From a virus: 55,185 nt of DNA. This document shows positions 2,868-49,911 of the stretch, in pieces; positions within the stretch are counted from its first letter, which is position 1; every line of letters starts with the position of its first letter. Below the pieces are notes generated by a model. The model was not told where the DNA came from, searched no databases, and saw only the letters and a program-made list of their open reading frames with translations. The translations under genes and the position numbers were made by a program. Where the stretch lies: IMG/VR virus record IMGVR_UViG_3300031673_004168, positions 1 through 55,185 of that record; one strand, given 5' to 3'.

Positions 2868-2879
2868 AAGGCAATCACA

Positions 2880-3110
2880 GCGGAGCTGGGGTTGTTGAAA
2901 GGTACCTATTTACCGAAAGAACCCCAAACGATAGTAGAAGGTTTGGCTGAACTATCCAGCATAGGTAGATAGGTCTGGCACAGGCAGGCAATTATAGGTT
3001 AAGGGGCTATTTCCGCATAACAGTCACTTAACGAGACTCAGGAGCGGAGACACGTTGCGGATAAGTTTGTCACGCTGGGCAGGGGATAAACCCTGTTGTC
3101 TGTGCCAATT
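2880..3110 (+). ncRNA. Candidate structured RNA B (about 230 nt)
   Basis: No long frame covers this gap, but many stems can be drawn. GGGGTT/AACCCC (2888-2893, 2920-2925) encloses GGTA/TACC. CCAAAC/GTTTGG and GATAGT/ACTATC compete just after. TGGCACAG/CTGTGCCA (2976-2983, 3100-3107) pairs over a long range and encloses GTTAAG/CTTAAC, AGTC/GACT and CAGGG/CCCTG. A separate promoter is not evident. A structured RNA or a long leader controlling the zinc-ribbon gene are both possible. Confidence 0.45.
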
Positions 3111-3126
3111 AAAATTTAGGAAGTGA

Positions 3127-3276
3127 AAAATAAAAACACAAATCTTTATTCAAATACATTGTCCCACGTGTGGTGAGTGGGTACTAAGAAAAGATGATTA
3201 CGAATTTTCGTGTTGTCCGTATTGTGGGGCAGTCGTAGAAACTGATAAAGCCAAGAAAGTATATTATGAGAAAATT
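3127..3276 (+). other. Coding extension upstream of the zinc-ribbon gene
   Basis: The frame of the gene at 3277 stays open back to a TGA at 3124-3126, and the 50 extra codons encode another zinc ribbon (CPTCGEW, then CCPYCG). No ATG, GTG or TTG occurs in it. AGGAAG (3118-3123) lies at the right distance from an ATA at 3130. A GTG at 3123 would enter this frame if one A were removed from the AAAAA at 3126-3130. Either a rare start codon or a one-base error or mutation is implied. Confidence 0.55.
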
Positions 3277-4086: not shown

Positions 4087-4294
4087 ATCCCTGACCAAAT
4101 ACAAATTAGGCGATAAGCAAATTTTCATAGTTGAGAATGACGAACGCAGAAAAAACTTTGATGATTTGGTCGGCAGGAAAGTAATCATAGACGGCGTGAA
4201 ATATAAATGTTTAGGCGTGGAAAGAAAACTTCACGCACCGCCGTGGGTTGTTGGAGAAAAAATAGGGTTAATGGTAAATGAGAAAAACAAATAG
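4070..4294 (+). CDS. Small basic protein of unknown function (74 aa)
   Basis: The ATG at 4070 follows GCGGAG and lies inside the end of the preceding gene. The protein begins MTKKYKSLTKYKLGDK and looks like a compact beta-rich fold (KVIIDGVKYKCLGVE). It overlaps the release-factor-like gene by 17 bases, so the three are translated as a unit. The family is not recognised. Confidence 0.65.
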   Translation: MTKKYKSLTKYKLGDKQIFIVENDERRKNFDDLVGRKVIIDGVKYKCLGVERKLHAPPWVVGEKIGLMVNEKNK

Positions 4295-4634
4295 AGAACC
4301 ATTATTAAGTCTAACAAAAAAAGATTTTAGGGTAGACACTTTTAAGTCTGGCGGAAAAGGCGGTCAACATCAGAATAAAACAAATTCTGGAGTAAGAATA
4401 ACGCATATAGCAACTGGTATTTCTTACGAATGCAGAGAAGAACGGGAACAAAGCCGAAATAAGAAAAAAGCTTTTAAAAAATTATGTGCTGATAAAAAAT
4501 TTCTGTTATGGATTAAACAAGAAAGCTTTAAAAAGGAAAACGAAGAGAGAGATAAAGAAAAATATTCTATTACGGAAGAGAATATAATAGTAGAACACAG
4601 GGGAAATGGCAAATGGGAAAAGGAGAAGCAATGA
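4278..4634 (+). CDS. Stand-alone GGQ domain, release-factor-like
   Basis: A 118-residue protein matching the catalytic domain of class I release factors. It has SGGKGGQHQNKTNSGVRITH (about 24-43), with the GGQ at 28-30 that hydrolyses peptidyl-tRNA in the ribosome, and the following EEREQSRNKKKA helix. It lacks the codon-reading domains and so resembles the ArfB/PrfH-like group that rescues stalled or damaged ribosomes. A Lys/Glu-rich tail replaces the ArfB tail. Possible roles are rescue during host takeover or release on damaged ribosomes. Overlaps neighbours on both sides (ATGA with the next gene). Confidence 0.8.
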   Translation: MRKTNREPLLSLTKKDFRVDTFKSGGKGGQHQNKTNSGVRITHIATGISYECREEREQSRNKKKAFKKLCADKKFLLWIKQESFKKENEERDKEKYSITEENIIVEHRGNGKWEKEKQ

Positions 4635-5359: not shown

Positions 5360-5369
5360 AAAAATAACC

Positions 5370-5739
5370 AAGTGGCTGAATATGCGTGCCAGAGCATAAA
5401 GCACAGAGTGGATAGCTGAAAAGCTATTCGGGCTGGTTGTACAGGTTTATGGGCATAATGCTAAAAAAGCTTTGAGTTGGTCAACTCTTAGCCTCGTAAG
5501 AACAGGACAAATCGCATTAAACTAATGATGATGGCTGTATCCTGTTGGAGGTACTCAATCCTTCCGTTCATTAAGACTAAGCATGACGATACTTAGTTGA
5601 ACGTGGCAGAATAATTCTTGTAAATCGATGGCTTGTGGGTAGTCAGGAATCCCACCTTGGTTAAAAATTTTAGAGTTAAAGTCGACATTGAAGCCGATAT
5701 TTAGGCAGAGTCAAATCTGTTTAGGTATCGGCTTTTTTT
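5370..5739 (+). ncRNA. Candidate structured RNA C (about 350 nt) with its own terminator
   Basis: The gap is about 400 bases with no plausible gene and dense pairing. TAGCT-GAAA-AGCTA (5413-5426) has a GNRA loop. GAGTT-GGTC-AACTC lies at 5474-5487. AACAGGA/TCCTGTT (5501-5507, 5540-5546) encloses CATTA-AAC-TAATG (5515-5527). CGTTCA/TGAACG (5565-5570, 5598-5603) encloses ACTAAG/CTTAGT (5576-5581, 5592-5597). GTGGG/CCCAC lies at 5635-5655. A classic terminator ends the stretch. I do not match it to tmRNA, RNase P RNA or a group I intron core. Confidence 0.6.
5691..5739 (+). terminator. Rho-independent terminator of RNA C
   Basis: AAGCCGATA (5691-5699) pairs with TATCGGCTT (5726-5734). An inner CAGA/TCTG stem extends the hairpin, and a run of seven T follows. 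The next gene starts about 20 bases later with its own ribosome site. Confidence 0.8.
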
Positions 5740-6800: not shown

Positions 6801-7823
6801 ATGGTACTAACATCACCAAACTTAAAACCAGAAAGCGTTCTAATAACCGAAGAAAGCGACAGAGCGTTTGGCAGAGCGTTAATTACAGGAGTTTCAGGAT
6901 TTGTGGGCAGGCATTTAGTTGAATTTCTTCAACGTGAACATCCTGAAATAGAAATTCATGGGCTTGTTAGGTACAGGTCAAATGTAGAAAAACTTGATGG
7001 GATAAACTTGCATTATGGCGACCTTAACGATTTTTCGTCATTGTCATGTTTGATTGCGGAAACAAGACCTGATTGCATCTACCACCTTGCGGCGATGAGT
7101 TACGTCGACCAGAGTTTTAAGGCTCCAGCGGATACATTAAAGACGAATATTATCGGCACATGTAATCTTTTGGAATCCGTGAAATGTCTTAAATCGGATT
7201 TAGGATATGACCCAGTAATAGCAATAATCTCATCAAGCGAAGTGTATGGGCAGGTAAAAGAAGATGAGTTGCCGATAAATGAAATGAATCAATTTAGACC
7301 TGCTTCGCCATATGCCGTGAGTAAGGTCGGAGAGGATATGTGTGCCCTTCAGTACCACCTATCTTGGGGCTTAAAAACCTTGCGTAGCAGGGCGTTTACT
7401 CATTCGGGTTCGGGCAGAGGGGAGCAATTCTGCCTATCAAGTTTCGCCAAACAAATAGCAGAAATAGAAAAAGGCAAACGAGAATTTATTTCGGTAGGCA
7501 ATTTAGATTCCGTAAGAACACTTTGCGATGTAAGAGATATGGTAAGAGCGTACTGGCTTATGGTAACGAAATGCGAATATGGTCATGTTTACAATATCGG
7601 TGGCGATGAACATATGACGGTAGGCGAAGCGTTAGATGTTCTTCGTGGTATGTCAACAAAAGACATAGAAGTTAGAGTAGACCCGAAACGATTAAGACCG
7701 TCTGACGTTACTTTACAGTTACCAGACAGTTCAAAGTTCCGAGAAAAGACAGGCTGGAAACCTGAATATTCTGCTAAAGAGATGATGGAAAGCATCTTAA
7801 ACTTTTGGAGAGAACGAGTATGA
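6801..7823 (+). CDS. NDP-sugar 4,6-dehydratase-type SDR (GMD/RMD-like)
   Basis: A 340-residue extended short-chain dehydrogenase. The NAD(P)-binding GVSGFVGRH is near residue 32, SSSEVYG near 144 and catalytic YAVSK near 170. VGNLDSVRTLCDVRDMVRAY near 233 is typical of GDP-mannose 4,6-dehydratases and of the GDP-4-keto-6-deoxymannose reductases related to them. In this genome, which also encodes GmhA, HddC-like and HddA-like enzymes, a GDP-heptose (DmhA-like) substrate is plausible, but the residues do not settle dehydratase versus reductase. It lies 16 kb away from the other sugar genes. Overlaps the next gene by ATGA. Confidence 0.8.
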   Translation: MVLTSPNLKPESVLITEESDRAFGRALITGVSGFVGRHLVEFLQREHPEIEIHGLVRYRSNVEKLDGINLHYGDLNDFSSLSCLIAETRPDCIYHLAAMSYVDQSFKAPADTLKTNIIGTCNLLESVKCLKSDLGYDPVIAIISSSEVYGQVKEDELPINEMNQFRPASPYAVSKVGEDMCALQYHLSWGLKTLRSRAFTHSGSGRGEQFCLSSFAKQIAEIEKGKREFISVGNLDSVRTLCDVRDMVRAYWLMVTKCEYGHVYNIGGDEHMTVGEALDVLRGMSTKDIEVRVDPKRLRPSDVTLQLPDSSKFREKTGWKPEYSAKEMMESILNFWRERV

Positions 7824-8506
7824 TTAAGTTGATACGTGGAGATTGTTTGGAAGAAATGAAGAAGATGCCGGATAAGAGTATAGACATGATTTTAACTGAC
7901 CCTCCGTATGGAATATCTTTCAAGTCCCACAGACAAACTTATCAAAAAGCAATAAAAAATGACGGCTTTGATGAATGGATTTTGCTATTACCAAACATGT
8001 TAAAAGAGTTTAAGCGTTTATTAACTGATACTGGTTGTTGTTGTTGTTGTTGTTGTGGTGGTGGAAAAACTCCAGTAACAGCAATTTTCACTATTGAATC
8101 ACTTAAATATTTTAATCTCATACAAACTTTAGTTTGGAAAAAGTTTATTGGATTAGGTTGGAAATATAGACCGAGTTATGAAAATATAGTTGTATTAAGT
8201 AAAGATTCCAAAAACTATAATTTTTATGATACAAGCAAAAAATGTTCAAATGTTATAGAAGGTATAAACCAAAAAATACCAAGAAAAGGCGAGCATCCTA
8301 CCGTTAAACCAATTAAATTGATGGAAAAATTGATTGAAATACATTCTATACAAAACATGACAATCCTTGACCCCTTCATGGGAAGTGGTACTACTGGAAT
8401 TGCATGCAAAAAGTTAAACCGTAATTTTATAGGCATAGAAATTGATAAAGATTATTTTAAATTGGCAGAACAACGAATAAAAAATACAAGTTTGAGGTTG
8501 TTATGA
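7820..8506 (+). CDS. DNA methyltransferase, beta class (TDPPYG), with poly-Cys run
   Basis: A 228-residue amino-methyltransferase: catalytic TDPPYG at 26-31, SAM-binding DPFMGSGTTG near 186, and a KPIKLMEKLI helix before it. TDPPYG is close to the N6-adenine consensus (DPPY). ATG at 7820 overlaps the preceding stop and is preferred to the in-frame upstream start. Residues 73-79 are seven Cys in a row encoded by seven TGT triplets, followed by three Gly. That lies between the catalytic and SAM motifs. Solitary, without a nuclease partner. Confidence 0.85.
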   Translation: MIKLIRGDCLEEMKKMPDKSIDMILTDPPYGISFKSHRQTYQKAIKNDGFDEWILLLPNMLKEFKRLLTDTGCCCCCCCGGGKTPVTAIFTIESLKYFNLIQTLVWKKFIGLGWKYRPSYENIVVLSKDSKNYNFYDTSKKCSNVIEGINQKIPRKGEHPTVKPIKLMEKLIEIHSIQNMTILDPFMGSGTTGIACKKLNRNFIGIEIDKDYFKLAEQRIKNTSLRLL

Positions 8507-8904
8507 TTAAAGAAGAACGTATAAAAATATCCAAACTTAAAGATTCAAACGGCAATCCTTTTTCAGTAATTCAGGCACAGACATTTAGCGAAGACCAATG
8601 GGTTACTATACTTAAAACCGCACAGAAAGAAATTAACCGAGCTTGTAATGGAGATTTAAAGTTTACGTCAGATTATTGGCTGAAAAAGTTAAGTCTTTAT
8701 AACTCAATGTTCAGGATACAAGCTATGGTAAGAAACGCTAAACTTTATGGCGACCTTCCACCGATAGATGTTATTTATGGGTACAAAGATATAGACGGGT
8801 ATGTTTTGGTAGACGGTCGTCATAGATGTTGGGCTTATGTTTTATGTGGCAGGGAAGAAATAAATGCAAGAGTTACTTACAGAAAAGGTTATAAAGGAGA
8901 TTGA
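8503..8904 (+). CDS. ParB/sulfiredoxin-fold protein
   Basis: A 133-residue protein whose last third, around residues 90-128, has the ParB-type nuclease signature: a polar strand, then VLVDGRHRCWAYVLCG and a final strand. This DGRHR box binds phosphate (CTP/ATP or DNA backbone) in ParB and related small nucleases. The amino part is helical and unassigned. A second protein with this box is encoded at 12819. Possible roles are nuclease, nucleotide switch or DNA partition; the sequence does not decide. It overlaps the methyltransferase by four bases. Confidence 0.7.
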   Translation: MIKEERIKISKLKDSNGNPFSVIQAQTFSEDQWVTILKTAQKEINRACNGDLKFTSDYWLKKLSLYNSMFRIQAMVRNAKLYGDLPPIDVIYGYKDIDGYVLVDGRHRCWAYVLCGREEINARVTYRKGYKGD

Positions 8905-8905
8905 A

Positions 8906-9121
8906 ATGTATGCGTATGAATTTATGGATTTTCTCGATTACATTTTTTCAATGAAATCTTCAAAAGACCGTATGTTTGCTATATGTTTAATGTCTGGAAT
9001 GACGCAACAAGAAGTAGCGATTATGGCGAATTGCACACAACCTTATGTATGCAAAAGACTTAAAAAAATAAAAAGTAGTTATAAAAAGAGTGATTTATTT
9101 CGTTATAACTATGATAGGTAA
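8906..9121 (+). CDS. Sigma-factor region 4-like HTH protein
   Basis: 71 residues; ATG at 8906 follows AAAGGAG. Residues about 22-55 (DRMFAICLMSGMTQQEVAIM, then a turn and PYVCKRLKKI) match the helix-turn-helix of sigma70 region 4, which reads the -35 element and touches the polymerase flap. No region 2 is present here, but the very next gene looks like region 2. Together they would be a sigma factor in two pieces and in reverse order, or a pair like T4 gp33/gp55. A simple HTH regulator is the alternative. Confidence 0.65.
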   Translation: MYAYEFMDFLDYIFSMKSSKDRMFAICLMSGMTQQEVAIMANCTQPYVCKRLKKIKSSYKKSDLFRYNYDR

Positions 9122-9125
9122 AAAT

Positions 9126-9389
9126 ATGTTTATCAAAAGTATTTATGAAATTAACGTAAAAAAGATTTCTTCGTTGCTATCAAAAGATTTGCACATGCGT
9201 GAAGATTTGCAACAGGAGATGTTGTTAGAAATATTTAAACAGGGCAGGTATTACGATAAAGAAATTGATAGCTATGTACTTTGGGTGGCAAAAAATAGAG
9301 CAATAGATTACATAAGAAAGTTTAATAAAAAAGAAATACCTTACGGTTCCATGAACGACATAGATAATCTATTAAATTCAGAAAAGTGA
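9126..9389 (+). CDS. Sigma-factor region 2-like protein
   Basis: 87 residues; the ATG at 9126 follows AGGTAAAA and comes four bases after the preceding stop (ATG at 9111 is an alternative). REDLQQEMLLEIFKQ (about 24-38) and YVLWVAKNRAIDYIRKF (about 50-66) match sigma region 2, which binds the polymerase clamp and melts the -10. It lacks region 4. The position directly before terminase genes suggests control of late transcription. Confidence 0.65.
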   Translation: MFIKSIYEINVKKISSLLSKDLHMREDLQQEMLLEIFKQGRYYDKEIDSYVLWVAKNRAIDYIRKFNKKEIPYGSMNDIDNLLNSEK

Positions 9390-9634
9390 TTTTTAGATGC
9401 GTTTTTCACTATAATAATAAAACGCTCACCCCTTTTATGTCGAACTTAATAACACATTTTGAAAAGTATATTCAGAAAGATGAGTTCGATAAAATAAGTA
9501 AGAAAGTTCTCGTAAAGTTTTTCATTATATTCATAGATTTTTTTAATAAACAAGGGTATCAAATAATTTATCGAGGCAAAAAATGGGTTTCGAGCCAAAA
9601 TATAAAGACCATAAATACAAAGACAAGATTATAG
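9386..9634 (+). CDS. Small protein of unknown function (82 aa or shorter)
   Basis: GTG at 9386 overlaps the preceding stop (GTGA). An internal ATG at 9437 would give 65 residues. The middle has a hydrophobic, aromatic segment (VLVKFFIIFIDFF). The end overlaps the following gene by 52 bases in another frame, which is unusual here and lowers confidence. Family not recognised. Confidence 0.4.
   Translation: MIFRCVFHYNNKTLTPFMSNLITHFEKYIQKDEFDKISKKVLVKFFIIFIDFFNKQGYQIIYRGKKWVSSQNIKTINTKTRL
9399..9425 (+). promoter_or_regulatory. Hairpin with TATAAT, possible late promoter
   Basis: GCGTTTT (9399-9405) pairs with AAAACGC (9419-9425). The loop contains TATAATAATA (9410-9419), which could be a -10 or a T4-late-type element. 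No good -35 is seen. It lies just after the split sigma genes and before the terminase genes. Confidence 0.3.
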
Positions 9635-10023
9635 AACATTTCGAGAAGGGTACACCTCTATCTAAAATATCATCTTGGTTGTCTGCTTTAGGTCCAGAAC
9701 ACGCAATATCAACATATACACTTAGACATCACAAAAAAAAGTATACTGATAGCAAGCGTAGCGATGATGAACTTGCTAAAGCCAAGAACGAGTTTGGCGA
9801 TACAACAGACTTAGAATACTATCTAATAGAAACCATAGTTCAGTGTAGAATAAAAAAAGAACAAAAAAACCTTAGAAGCTATGACTATCAGAAATACGAC
9901 CAGCAAATGCAAATGGCGATAAAACTACTTAACGAACTAAGAAGTTCAGACCAAAGAGGCATGAGTATGGAAGAAGTCTTTACTAAACTTGCGGATAAAG
10001 TAAAAACAAATGACGCAAAATGA
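9583..10023 (+). CDS. Probable small terminase subunit
   Basis: A 146-residue protein encoded directly upstream of, and overlapping, the large terminase gene, where the DNA-recognition subunit normally lies. The front (KIIEHFEKGTPLSKISSWLS, then ISTYTLRHHKKKY) looks like a helix-turn-helix. The rest is helical, as expected for oligomerisation. No specific family signature is certain, so the call rests on position and fold pattern. Confidence 0.6.
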   Translation: MGFEPKYKDHKYKDKIIEHFEKGTPLSKISSWLSALGPEHAISTYTLRHHKKKYTDSKRSDDELAKAKNEFGDTTDLEYYLIETIVQCRIKKEQKNLRSYDYQKYDQQMQMAIKLLNELRSSDQRGMSMEEVFTKLADKVKTNDAK

Positions 10024-11389
10024 ACTTGAACGAGAAATTATAATACAGTTTCTTGAAACCTTTACAAAGGTAGAGGGTTCGGATTGTAAACTTTATGATT
10101 ATCAAAAAAAGTTCATAAGGGATTTAAGCACGTTCAGGATAGTCAACAAAGCAAGGCAATTGGGGTTTTCGTTTATACTGGCAGGTGAAGGGCTTGTGGA
10201 ATCTATTATGAATCCAGAAGCCGTAATTCTGTTTATATCAACTTCGGAAAACTCCGCTAAGCGTGTGCTTGACTATTGCAAACAAATTTATCATTCGATA
10301 CCTGTTGGAATAAGACCGAAGACGTTTAAAAATTCTCAAACAGAACTACAATTTTTGGGTAAAGATAGAAAACCAGCTGGTCATTTAGTATCATTGCCAA
10401 ATAATGCCTCAACTTGTCGTGGTTTTAATGCCAACCGAATTTATATAGACGAAGCGGCACATTTCAAAGAAGAAGATAAACTTTTTCGTGCGATACAACC
10501 GTCAATTTCTCGTGGAGGCAAGATGACGGTATCGTCGACTCCGCTTGGGCGTGGAAATACCTTCTACGATATTTGGGCTAACAATAAAGAGTACAGCAAA
10601 CACCTTGTACCATATACTTTATGTCCAGACCCAGTTTATCAAAAACGCATAAAAGATATGCAATTGACTATGGACGAACTGTCGTTTGCTCAAGAATTTT
10701 TATGCGAGTTTAGAGAAGACGCATACGCATATTTTCCAGAAAAAATACTTGCACCATGTATAGATAACGAGTTAGGTCAATACTTTCAGATTAAACGTCA
10801 AGGTGTTGTCCATATGGGTATAGATTGGGCAAAGAAAGAAGATTCAACAGCAGTTGTAGTTGTAGAACATCTTGATAAAGATAAACTTTGCATAGTTAGA
10901 CGTATAGAATTTTACAAAAGAATGCCATACGAAAAGCAGTTAAGCCATGTCTACGAAATTTGCAGAGAACTTGAAGTAGAAAAAATATTCTGCGACCAGA
11001 CAGGTGTTGGCGAGAAACTTTACGAAGATTTGGTAAACAATTCAGGGGTTTTAGTAGAAGGTATAAATTTCACAGTTGCGACCAAAGAACTTTTGATAAC
11101 AAAGTTACGCCAACTTTTCGAGGGCGAATCTATACGCATACCACGCCATAAAGAACTTATAACACAACTAAGAAGTCTTGAACGAACTTATACCGAGCAA
11201 GGTAACGTGCGATTTAGGCATGTAAGCAACGAACACGATGATGCGGTCTGGGGTTTGGCAATGGCGGCATCGGAGTTCAAAAAAGCAGGAAGAGACTTTG
11301 CGTTTAAGTTAGGTCCAGAACGTGAATCCGTGAAAATGTACGACAAAGACGAAAACGAAGATATGGCAAAAATAAGAAAACTTTTTTAA
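10010..11389 (+). CDS. terL: Large terminase subunit
   Basis: The 459-residue packaging motor. The ATPase part has KARQLGFS (47-54, the variant P-loop of this family) and Walker B IYIDEAA (145-151). The RNase H-like nuclease part has its first aspartate in GIDWAKKED (Asp 273), a second in FCDQTG (Asp 330) and DDAVWG near the end. It cuts concatemers and drives DNA into the prohead through the portal encoded next. It starts inside the end of the preceding gene. Confidence 0.93.
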   Translation: MTQNELEREIIIQFLETFTKVEGSDCKLYDYQKKFIRDLSTFRIVNKARQLGFSFILAGEGLVESIMNPEAVILFISTSENSAKRVLDYCKQIYHSIPVGIRPKTFKNSQTELQFLGKDRKPAGHLVSLPNNASTCRGFNANRIYIDEAAHFKEEDKLFRAIQPSISRGGKMTVSSTPLGRGNTFYDIWANNKEYSKHLVPYTLCPDPVYQKRIKDMQLTMDELSFAQEFLCEFREDAYAYFPEKILAPCIDNELGQYFQIKRQGVVHMGIDWAKKEDSTAVVVVEHLDKDKLCIVRRIEFYKRMPYEKQLSHVYEICRELEVEKIFCDQTGVGEKLYEDLVNNSGVLVEGINFTVATKELLITKLRQLFEGESIRIPRHKELITQLRSLERTYTEQGNVRFRHVSNEHDDAVWGLAMAASEFKKAGRDFAFKLGPERESVKMYDKDENEDMAKIRKLF

Positions 11390-11400
11390 GGGAGGAAGTA

Positions 11401-12822
11401 GTGGGGTTTTTAGACAGATTTAAAAAAACTAAACCAGACGTTACGAAATACGCTGACGGTGTTGAAGTTAGAGAAAAACCTAATGTACGTGAATATGGCG
11501 TGCAAGGTAATCTCACTGCGAATTGGAATAAGTTTCTTGGTTTGGGAGACGCATTAAATCCAGACGAAATAGGCATACAGACTTATAAGGAAATGATGCA
11601 AGATGCCGAAGTTCGTGTTGGGTTTAATTTTATTCGGAACAGTATATTATCAAGAAAATGGAAAGTATCATACCCTGAAAAAAACTCAAACAAAGACACT
11701 TTAAATATTTTAGAATTTATTAAATTTTCTTTTGGAAACATAGATGATAATGCTCAATTTGAAAGGTCGCTTGGTAAACTTTTATACGCTATCCCTTATG
11801 GGTTCTCTGTAATAGAAATTGTTTGGAAAATTATTAAAGGTGGTAAGTTTTCTGGAAAGATAGGAATAAAGAAACTTAAAGATTTAGACCCAGAAAACAT
11901 AGAATTTGAAACAAACAAGTTTGGAGATATAGAAAAAATAGTTCAGAAAACTGGAGACAATGACAAAATTACAATCCCGCTTGAAAAAGCTATTGTCTAC
12001 ACCCCAGATAAAGAGTTTGGTAACCATTATGGAGTTTCGAGGTTAAGGTCGGTACATAAAAACTGGTTTGTAAAAAAAGTTGTTATAAAGTTCTGGAATA
12101 TAGCTTTAGAACGATTTGGTATGCCTATTCTCGTTGGAACAGTTCCTTCCAAGAATGAGTTAGACAAAATGCTTACCTTGCTTGACGATGTGCAAACAAG
12201 GTCGTCTGTTGCCAAAACAGATGGTTGGGAAATTGACGCATTAGAAACTGGCGTTGGTCGTTCCGCTGGTGGAGACTATAAATCCGCTTTAGAATACCAT
12301 AACTCACAGATATTAAGAGGAATGTTGGTCCCACCACTCCTCATAACAAGTCAAGGCGGTGGAGGTAGTTACGCTCTTTCAAACACACAATTTGGATTAT
12401 TCCAGACAATGCTAAAGTGTCTTGAAATAGATGTTGGCAATATAGTCGAAGAAAAGATTATCAAACCGTTGGTTATTTATAATTTTGGTGTACAGGACGT
12501 TTATCCACAGTTTGTTTTTGAACCTATGACAAAAGAAGATTTACTTAATTTAAGTAAGATATTCGCATTGCTTGTCAAGAACGGAGTGGTTGGTAATGAC
12601 GAACAGTGGATGCGAGATATGATGGGCGTTCCCCATAGAGATGTTGCGGAAGTTACACGAGATACTATTAAGGACAAGACTAAAGAAAAAGGTACTACCA
12701 AACCACTGCCTATCCCGGGAGCAACCGGAACTAAAGGAACACAACAGGTTAAGGTCGGAAAGACACCAACGACAGGCGGAAAAATTTCAGGCGTAAAAGG
12801 AGGGGTTAAGACACCAGTATGA
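11401..12822 (+). CDS. Portal protein (DUF935/Mu gp29-like)
   Basis: A 473-residue protein starting at GTG after GGGAGGAAGTA. The front (ALNPDEIGIQTYKEMMQDA, RVGFNFIRNSILSRKW) and the central LGMPILVG- and GGSYALSNTQ-like segments fit the DUF935 portal family typified by Mu gp29. The last 50 residues are Lys/Thr/Gly/Pro-rich and probably disordered. The portal forms the ring for DNA entry at one capsid vertex. Position after terL supports this. Confidence 0.88.
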   Translation: MGFLDRFKKTKPDVTKYADGVEVREKPNVREYGVQGNLTANWNKFLGLGDALNPDEIGIQTYKEMMQDAEVRVGFNFIRNSILSRKWKVSYPEKNSNKDTLNILEFIKFSFGNIDDNAQFERSLGKLLYAIPYGFSVIEIVWKIIKGGKFSGKIGIKKLKDLDPENIEFETNKFGDIEKIVQKTGDNDKITIPLEKAIVYTPDKEFGNHYGVSRLRSVHKNWFVKKVVIKFWNIALERFGMPILVGTVPSKNELDKMLTLLDDVQTRSSVAKTDGWEIDALETGVGRSAGGDYKSALEYHNSQILRGMLVPPLLITSQGGGGSYALSNTQFGLFQTMLKCLEIDVGNIVEEKIIKPLVIYNFGVQDVYPQFVFEPMTKEDLLNLSKIFALLVKNGVVGNDEQWMRDMMGVPHRDVAEVTRDTIKDKTKEKGTTKPLPIPGATGTKGTQQVKVGKTPTTGGKISGVKGGVKTPV

Positions 12823-13274
12823 TGAAAAAAAATATATTTAATGATTTAGGAACTTATTATGTTGAATGGCTTAAAGAAGAACGTCCTTTAATAGACTTGT
12901 TAATAGATGGCATTTACTGTAAACACGAACGTAATTATGTTCATTATCATAATAACTATCGTAATCAGTTGAAGGGTTTGCTATACGACTTTGAAAATGA
13001 AAGATTTGTTATTGAACGTGAACGTAACAATCGTCTTGTAAAAATACTTGAAAGCACTGGTGAGCTTTACCCAATAGCAGTTTATGATTATGAAAACGGA
13101 TTCATGTGCGTAGACGGACATCACAGAATAATGGCACATTTAACATGTAAATATGATTATATCCCAGCCATAATCTATAAAGATTGCCATGAAGCAGGTC
13201 AGGCAAAAGCTAACGCTATAAATACAGACTATTATAAAGACCTCATGGAGATAGATAAGGAGATAGGTGCATGA
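12819..13274 (+). CDS. ParB-like protein, second copy
   Basis: 151 residues. The carboxy half (YPIAVYDYENGFMCVDGHHR, then IMAHLTCKYDYIPAIIY) matches the ParB/Srx fold with DGHHR in place of the DGRHR of the protein encoded at 8503. The remainder differs. Lying between portal and protease, it may be a virion or DNA-processing accessory protein. It overlaps neighbours at both ends. Confidence 0.65.
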   Translation: MMKKNIFNDLGTYYVEWLKEERPLIDLLIDGIYCKHERNYVHYHNNYRNQLKGLLYDFENERFVIERERNNRLVKILESTGELYPIAVYDYENGFMCVDGHHRIMAHLTCKYDYIPAIIYKDCHEAGQAKANAINTDYYKDLMEIDKEIGA

Positions 13275-15302: not shown

Positions 15303-15337
15303 GACAACAGTCTTAAAATACAATTGGGAAACCAATT
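15301..15337 (+). promoter_or_regulatory. Two hairpins before the decoration gene
   Basis: AAGAC-AACA-GTCTT (15301-15314) and AATTGG-GAAA-CCAATT (15322-15337) follow one another in the 60-base gap. Neither has a full T-run. They may protect or separate the very abundant decoration/capsid message from the upstream part. Confidence 0.4.
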
Positions 15338-15362
15338 ATAGATATAAATTGAGGAGAAAAAG

Positions 15363-16758: not shown

Positions 16759-16773
16759 TACGTAAATAAATCA

Positions 16774-16812
16774 GTGTGGGGAGTGATGGTTTGTAACCGT
16801 TGCTTCCCACAC
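16774..16812 (+). terminator. Stem-loop after the capsid gene
   Basis: GTGTGGGGA (16774-16782) pairs with TTCCCACAC (16804-16812), one G-U pair included. An inner GGTT-TGT-AACC hairpin fits the loop. No T-run follows, so partial termination or message protection is more likely than full termination. Confidence 0.55.
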
Positions 16813-16831
16813 AAACTAAAAGGAGTAAAAA

Positions 16832-18266: not shown

Positions 18267-18332
18267 CGTCCCCAGACGTGTGTCGTGCCCACACACGATA
18301 CCTTTGCGATAGCGAAAGGTTTTCTGGGGACG
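18267..18332 (+). ncRNA. Three-way-junction RNA element (66 nt)
   Basis: CGTCCCCAGA (18267-18276) pairs perfectly with TCTGGGGACG (18323-18332). Inside are CGTGTGT/ACACACG (18277-18283, 18291-18297, 7-base loop) and ACCTTTGC/GC(g)AAAGGT (18300-18307, 18312-18320, GATA loop, one bulged G). The element begins right after one stop codon and ends 17 bases before the next ATG. No T-run follows, so it is not a simple terminator. It could be a message-stability or processing element, or an unusual attenuator. Confidence 0.7.
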
Positions 18333-18348
18333 GTAAATCGGGAGAGTT

Positions 18349-49524: not shown

Positions 49525-49911
49525 GTGAATGAAGAAATCAAGCCTACTTTTGGGACACATCTTATCTTAGATTTAAGATGTTGTGATGAAAATAAACTTA
49601 AAGATTATAAATTGATATTTGATATTTTATATGAACTGCCTGAAAAAATAGGTATGACAAAGATTACACAACCCTATGTTTTCCCATACTCTGGGCTTGT
49701 TCCTGAAGATAAAGGAATAACTGGAATTGTAATTATCGCAGAAAGCCATATCTCTATACATACTTTTCAGGAGAAAGATTATTGTTTTGTAGATGTTTTT
49801 TCTTGTAAACCTTTTGATTATAGATATGCTTCAAACTTTATAGTAAACGTATTTAACTCAAAAGATTATGATGAAAAAGTAATAGAGCGAGGTATAAACT
49901 TTAGAAGATGA
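49525..49911 (+). CDS. speH: S-adenosylmethionine decarboxylase (SpeH-type)
   Basis: 128 residues. GTHLILDLRCC front, then ESHISIHTF with the Glu73-Ser74 self-cleavage site that yields the pyruvoyl group, and His79 and Cys94 (VDVFSC). The Ser-His-Cys spacing (5 and 15) is the same as in the Thermotoga enzyme. The reaction removes CO2 from SAM, for spermidine synthesis or to remove SAM. No spermidine synthase gene is seen. GTG start after AGGAGGGG. Confidence 0.88.
   Translation: MNEEIKPTFGTHLILDLRCCDENKLKDYKLIFDILYELPEKIGMTKITQPYVFPYSGLVPEDKGITGIVIIAESHISIHTFQEKDYCFVDVFSCKPFDYRYASNFIVNVFNSKDYDEKVIERGINFRR

Follow-up and report, generated by a model that had tools for sequence, protein, structure and literature searches.

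Sigma factors recognise the -35 element through region 4 and the -10 element through region 2, which also melts it. On RNA polymerase the two regions have separate docking sites, region 2 on the beta' clamp coiled-coil and region 4 on the beta flap (PMC2988020). The closest described system in which they are carried by separate proteins is SigO-RsoA (YvrI-YvrHa) of B. subtilis, where SigO supplies sigma-4, RsoA supplies sigma-2 and transcription needs both (PMC10028694); the operon is written yvrI-yvrHa (sigO-rsoA), i.e. with the sigma-4 gene first (PMC8103513). Among phages, T4 gp55 and gp33 have been described as a split sigma; gp33 shows neither recognisable homology to sigma factors nor recognition of a DNA sequence (PMC2988020). 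Phage SPO1 has two adjacent late-transcription genes, encoding gp33 and gp34, with the small one first and a 4-base overlap (NC_011421). Moreover, Gram-positive phages encode their late regulators at the boundary that precedes terS (PMC13123087), and small proteins of this kind (RinA, ArpU and Ltr) act, as far as described, without a region 2 partner.

We report that the IMG/VR virus record IMGVR_UViG_3300031673_004168 (55,185 bases from an uncultured phage, analysed over its whole length and referred to as the window) carries two separate, conserved genes, A and B, which bear region 4 (weak but specific) and region 2 (clear) sigma signatures, respectively. The plus strand carries a late region of the tailed-phage type, with genes for the large terminase subunit (TerL), a portal protein of the DUF935/phrog_113 kind, a head protease, the major capsid protein, a tape measure protein and a J-like tail protein. 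Among cultured phages the portal protein is 39% identical to that of Rossellomorea phage phiT1 and 31-33% identical to those of Bacillus phages such as Riggi, and the best TerL identity is about 28%; with cultured relatives no closer than these, the host may plausibly be Gram-positive. The features at and around the pair are as follows.

8503..8904, plus strand: ParB-like protein (phrog_1033, E=0.0014), 75% identical in the relative L002, upstream of A in the same order there
8906..9121, plus strand: gene A, sigma region 4-like helix-turn-helix (HTH) protein, 71 aa
9126..9389, plus strand: gene B, sigma region 2 only, 87 aa
9399..9425, plus strand: conserved non-coding element GCGTTTTTCACTATAATAATAAAACGC, 3' of B, candidate late promoter or operator
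9437..9634, plus strand: small ORF, 65 aa, separating B from the terminase genes, with a 50% identical homologue in L002
9583..10023, plus strand: presumed small terminase subunit (TerS), by position before TerL
10010..11389, plus strand: TerL (Terminase_6C, 5.8e-14; phrog_2, 3.3e-42)

A and B are separate ORFs in different frames with the region 4 gene first and a gap of four bases, and the arrangement described in the first-pass annotation, a region 4-like gene followed four bases on by a region 2-like gene, is thereby borne out. Its placing of the pair directly before the terminase genes needs correction, since the conserved small ORF 9437..9634 intervenes between B and the presumed TerS. 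The small ORF has no family match in a Pfam scan and the presumed TerS has none in Pfam or PHROG.

The region 2 assignment of B is clear. Pfam returned Sigma70_r2 (3.6e-8, above the gathering score) and no other domain, and the NCBIfam scan matched B to positions 6-74 of TIGR02937 (2.8e-7) as one of 28 matching models; the 25 of these 28 that were listed are all sigma factors, aligned over their region 2 part. B also matches the phage sigma family phrog_1740 at positions 69-128, retains the usual region 2 motifs (EDLQQEMLLEIFK and YVLWVAKNRAIDYIRK), and thus has the region 2 domain that marks the Sigma-70 family (ECF type). Region 4 is absent from B in the Pfam and NCBIfam scans. A predicted structure of B (pLDDT 47) was unusable and was set aside.

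The evidence for A is of a different kind. This basic protein (pI 9.2) has no Pfam match, including to Sigma70_r4, and its score against region 4 lies under every curated cut-off, that of TIGR02937 included. Its best matches among 18,950 NCBIfam models are nevertheless TIGR02937 (positions 112-160 of 165, E=0.005) and TIGR02999, both sigma factors and both matched over region 4, and it matches phrog_1740 at positions 157-214, the regulator family phrog_6831 (1.1e-4) and the region 4 pattern SGMTQQEVAIMANCTQPYVCKRLKKI. The AF2 model of A has four helices (pLDDT 68), and in a fold search its top PDB neighbour was region 4 of E. coli sigmaE, a weak hit (E=5.4, Z=3.0) that is suggestive only; PDB sequence searches gave nothing solid. 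Chance HTH scores of like height do occur, as seen in weak TIGR02937 matches in archaeal control genomes, and the assignment of A as a sigma region 4-like HTH protein, weak but specific, therefore rests on the score, the position in the model, the four-helix prediction and the neighbourhood combined. In the same vein, a match of the A2 profile in the L032 record (15.8 bits) proved to be a HAD hydrolase ORF and was discarded as a false positive. The matches to sigma region 2 and region 4 profiles that the first-pass annotation had called for were thus found, with the difference in strength just described.

The two proteins align to different, complementary stretches of a single sigma model. Specifically, when the full 55 kb were scanned in six frames with TIGR02937 (sigma-ECF), only B (model positions 4-74, 1.6e-8) and A (positions 97-159, 2.2e-4) matched, and the same scan of L002 also gave two matches in unchanged order. 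A and B do not form a single chain with region 2 first.

L002 (IMG/VR 3300014656_001973, 9.3 kb) is the sole close relative found, and its gene order, ParB-like / A / B / small ORF / TerS / TerL, matches that of the window. Identities between the two are 91% for the capsid protein, 84% for the portal, 81% for TerL, 69% for B and 58% for A; the L002 homologue of B matches Sigma70_r2 (7.8e-8), and the A-B gap is 35 bases in L002 versus four here. Compared with L002, pN was 0.23 and pS 0.64 for A, and pN 0.155 and pS about 0.63 for B. Both genes are under purifying selection, and since pN is several-fold lower than pS in each, both are maintained as proteins. This bears on whether the pair could be what is left of a once single-chain sigma factor that broke or was rearranged and no longer has a function. 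In favour of this, portal- or terminase-related records do have sigma matches in ORFs of single-chain length, but A and B are intact and selected in two diverged phages, and a simple break would have given the opposite gene order; we regard a remnant as very improbable.

Beyond L002 the pair is hard to find. No relatives of A or B were detected in 50,697 cultured-phage records and none of B in the genome-contig scan, and viral-contig scans returned L002 only. A search with the capsid protein added four further relatives (68-78%), of which only L035, a more distant relative (12 kb record), covers the region upstream of TerS. The slot before terS in L035 holds a 69-aa HTH protein (HTH_23, 9e-6; Sigma70_r4_2, 1.8e-5, just below cut-off), and no region 2 was found in that record. 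Conserved gene order in a related phage, one of the checks suggested in the first-pass annotation, was found in L002. Because the L035 slot has only the region 4-like HTH, the region 2 gene has been gained or lost within the phage group, and the HTH is the more widespread occupant of the slot.

The lone HTH protein of L035 also favours another reading, in which late activation falls to A alone, as a small DNA-binding HTH protein of the Ltr/RinA kind, and B is a separate accessory, e.g. a clamp-only binder or a competitor of the host sigma. The gene for A, like those for RinA, ArpU and Ltr, lies shortly before terS where early genes give way to late ones, and Gram-positive phages typically encode late regulators directly upstream of terS (PMC13123087). 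However, A has no RinA or ArpU match in NCBIfam, where A and its homologue yield sigma models plus one unrelated match, and B and A cover complementary stretches of one sigma model and are adjacent in both phages. We consider this reading doubtful.

By comparison with the known systems we hold it to be fairly probable that A and B instead make up, one subunit each, a two-part sigma factor that is encoded by the phage and serves the downstream late operon. SigO-RsoA is, judged by its published description, the closest known system in kind, in which sigma-4 and sigma-2 are each carried by a small protein of their own and the region 4 gene comes first, as in A/B; it differs in being cellular and controlling oxdC, and in the larger size of SigO. 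The reversed order emphasised in the first-pass annotation is real in that the region 4 gene comes first but is not unique, and since yvrI-yvrHa is also sigma-4 first it has a precedent and is no novelty by itself. The parallel drawn there with T4 is looser. A region 2-like protein and a separate flap-binding protein do drive the T4 late genes, but gp33 has no recognisable resemblance to sigma factors and reads no DNA, whereas A has a region 4-type HTH, and gp55/gp33 additionally require the sliding clamp gp45. SPO1 gp33/gp34 was rejected as a phage precedent: gp34 alone covers regions 2 and 4 (TIGR02937 4-163) and gp33 belongs to a separate family, PF25742, whereas B has no region 4 and A has no PF25742 match. 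A split region 4 / region 2 pair is rare in phages, with its bacterial counterpart known from SigO-RsoA, and we found no phage-encoded pair of this type in the open-access literature.

In the proposed two-part sigma factor, B, as region 2, would attach to the beta' clamp coiled-coil of the host RNA polymerase to recognise and melt the -10 element; A, as region 4, would occupy the beta flap and recognise a -35-like element. Acting jointly, as we infer, the two would bind polymerase and redirect it to late promoter(s) of the operon just downstream, with the small ORF, TerS, TerL, portal and capsid genes, and a role in late transcription fits the genomic place of the pair. The same docking sites could be put to the opposite use: region 2 and/or region 4 mimics might block the host sigma by binding to sigma or to core polymerase, as shut-off or decoy. 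Small single-domain proteins could fill the sigma docking sites, and phage proteins with such an effect are known (AsiA, and gp67 of G1; PMC11598898). A and B sit beside late genes, however, and not among the first early genes, and both retain the helices with which active sigma factors read DNA (region 2.4-like and the recognition helix of the HTH), and we judge a role against host transcription to be improbable.

If A and B do form a two-part sigma factor, this would be a phage sigma in two pieces whose second piece is a real region 4 and not an unrelated mimic as in T4, the link between the two reading heads would be dispensable for a phage sigma factor, and the pair, at only about 160 residues together, would serve as a natural switch with two inputs. 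Sigma-4 halves with overlooked partners might then also be present among the small HTH regulators that other phages encode before terS. As to its origin, a lineage with a lone region 4-like HTH late activator, as in L035, might have gained a separate region 2 gene, or kept it where others lost it, arriving independently of SigO-RsoA at a two-subunit sigma that acts as an AND gate for the late genes; this scenario strikes us as unlikely.

A possible target lies directly 3' of B. The element 9399..9425 aligns with L002 907-932 (0 of 1000 shuffles as good), and no sigma-70-type promoter was matched within positions 9330-9445 or L002 840-945. Sigma-70-like hexamer pairs are present in the early part of the window, e.g. 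TTGACA-16-TAAACT at 2155, with none before the terminase genes. Being conserved and having no such hexamer pair, the element is a candidate late promoter. It is only a weak lead, since the neighbouring gaps 15303-15362 and 16759-16831 show equal or better conservation and since the element stands alone: no second copy above chance was found in the window, for which reason it was rejected as a repeated late-promoter motif, and no other motif of this type repeated across the window was found. A hairpin in the element was not consistently predicted in L002.

Several other non-coding stretches were noted. The gap 15303-15362, before the capsid decoration gene, is near-identical in L002 and has a perfect AATTGG-GAAA-CCAATT hairpin. 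Strong hairpins also lie between structural genes at 16759-16831 (GTGTGGGGAGTGATGG...CCCACACA) and 18267-18348 (CCCCAGA...TCTGGGGACGG), possibly RNA processing or attenuation sites. Within 480-570, an early promoter-like sequence is surrounded by several copies of TTGTTGAACAAA that resemble phage repressor operators. Long early-region gaps at 2138-2363, 2868-3276 and 5360-5687 have no plus-strand ORF of at least 70 aa and look structured; they gave no Rfam family at threshold, and the scans of the window for Rfam families and tRNAs were empty.

With respect to sigma-like genes in other records, the matches in L023-L025 and L045-L047 were rejected as split pairs since the ORFs (about 190-250 aa) are long enough for a single-chain sigma. 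In a DUF935-portal phage (L040, IMGVR 3300048597_000170), a weak region 2-like ORF (863-1342; PF04542, 14 bits) is followed by an ORF in another frame (921-1514) ending in an HTH-like segment, just before the terminase genes, which may reflect a sigma gene that is split or frameshifted, or a mistake in the assembly.

Finally, the window encodes two ParB-like proteins, at 8503-8904 before A and at 12819-13274 after the portal gene, both with L002 homologues, as well as a release factor-like gene with an RF-1 domain (4278-4634) and an S-adenosylmethionine decarboxylase gene (49525-49911). The N6/N4 DNA methyltransferase gene at 7805-8506 contains, at about 8038-8061, a run of cysteine codons (CCCCCCC) that may be a repeat expansion.
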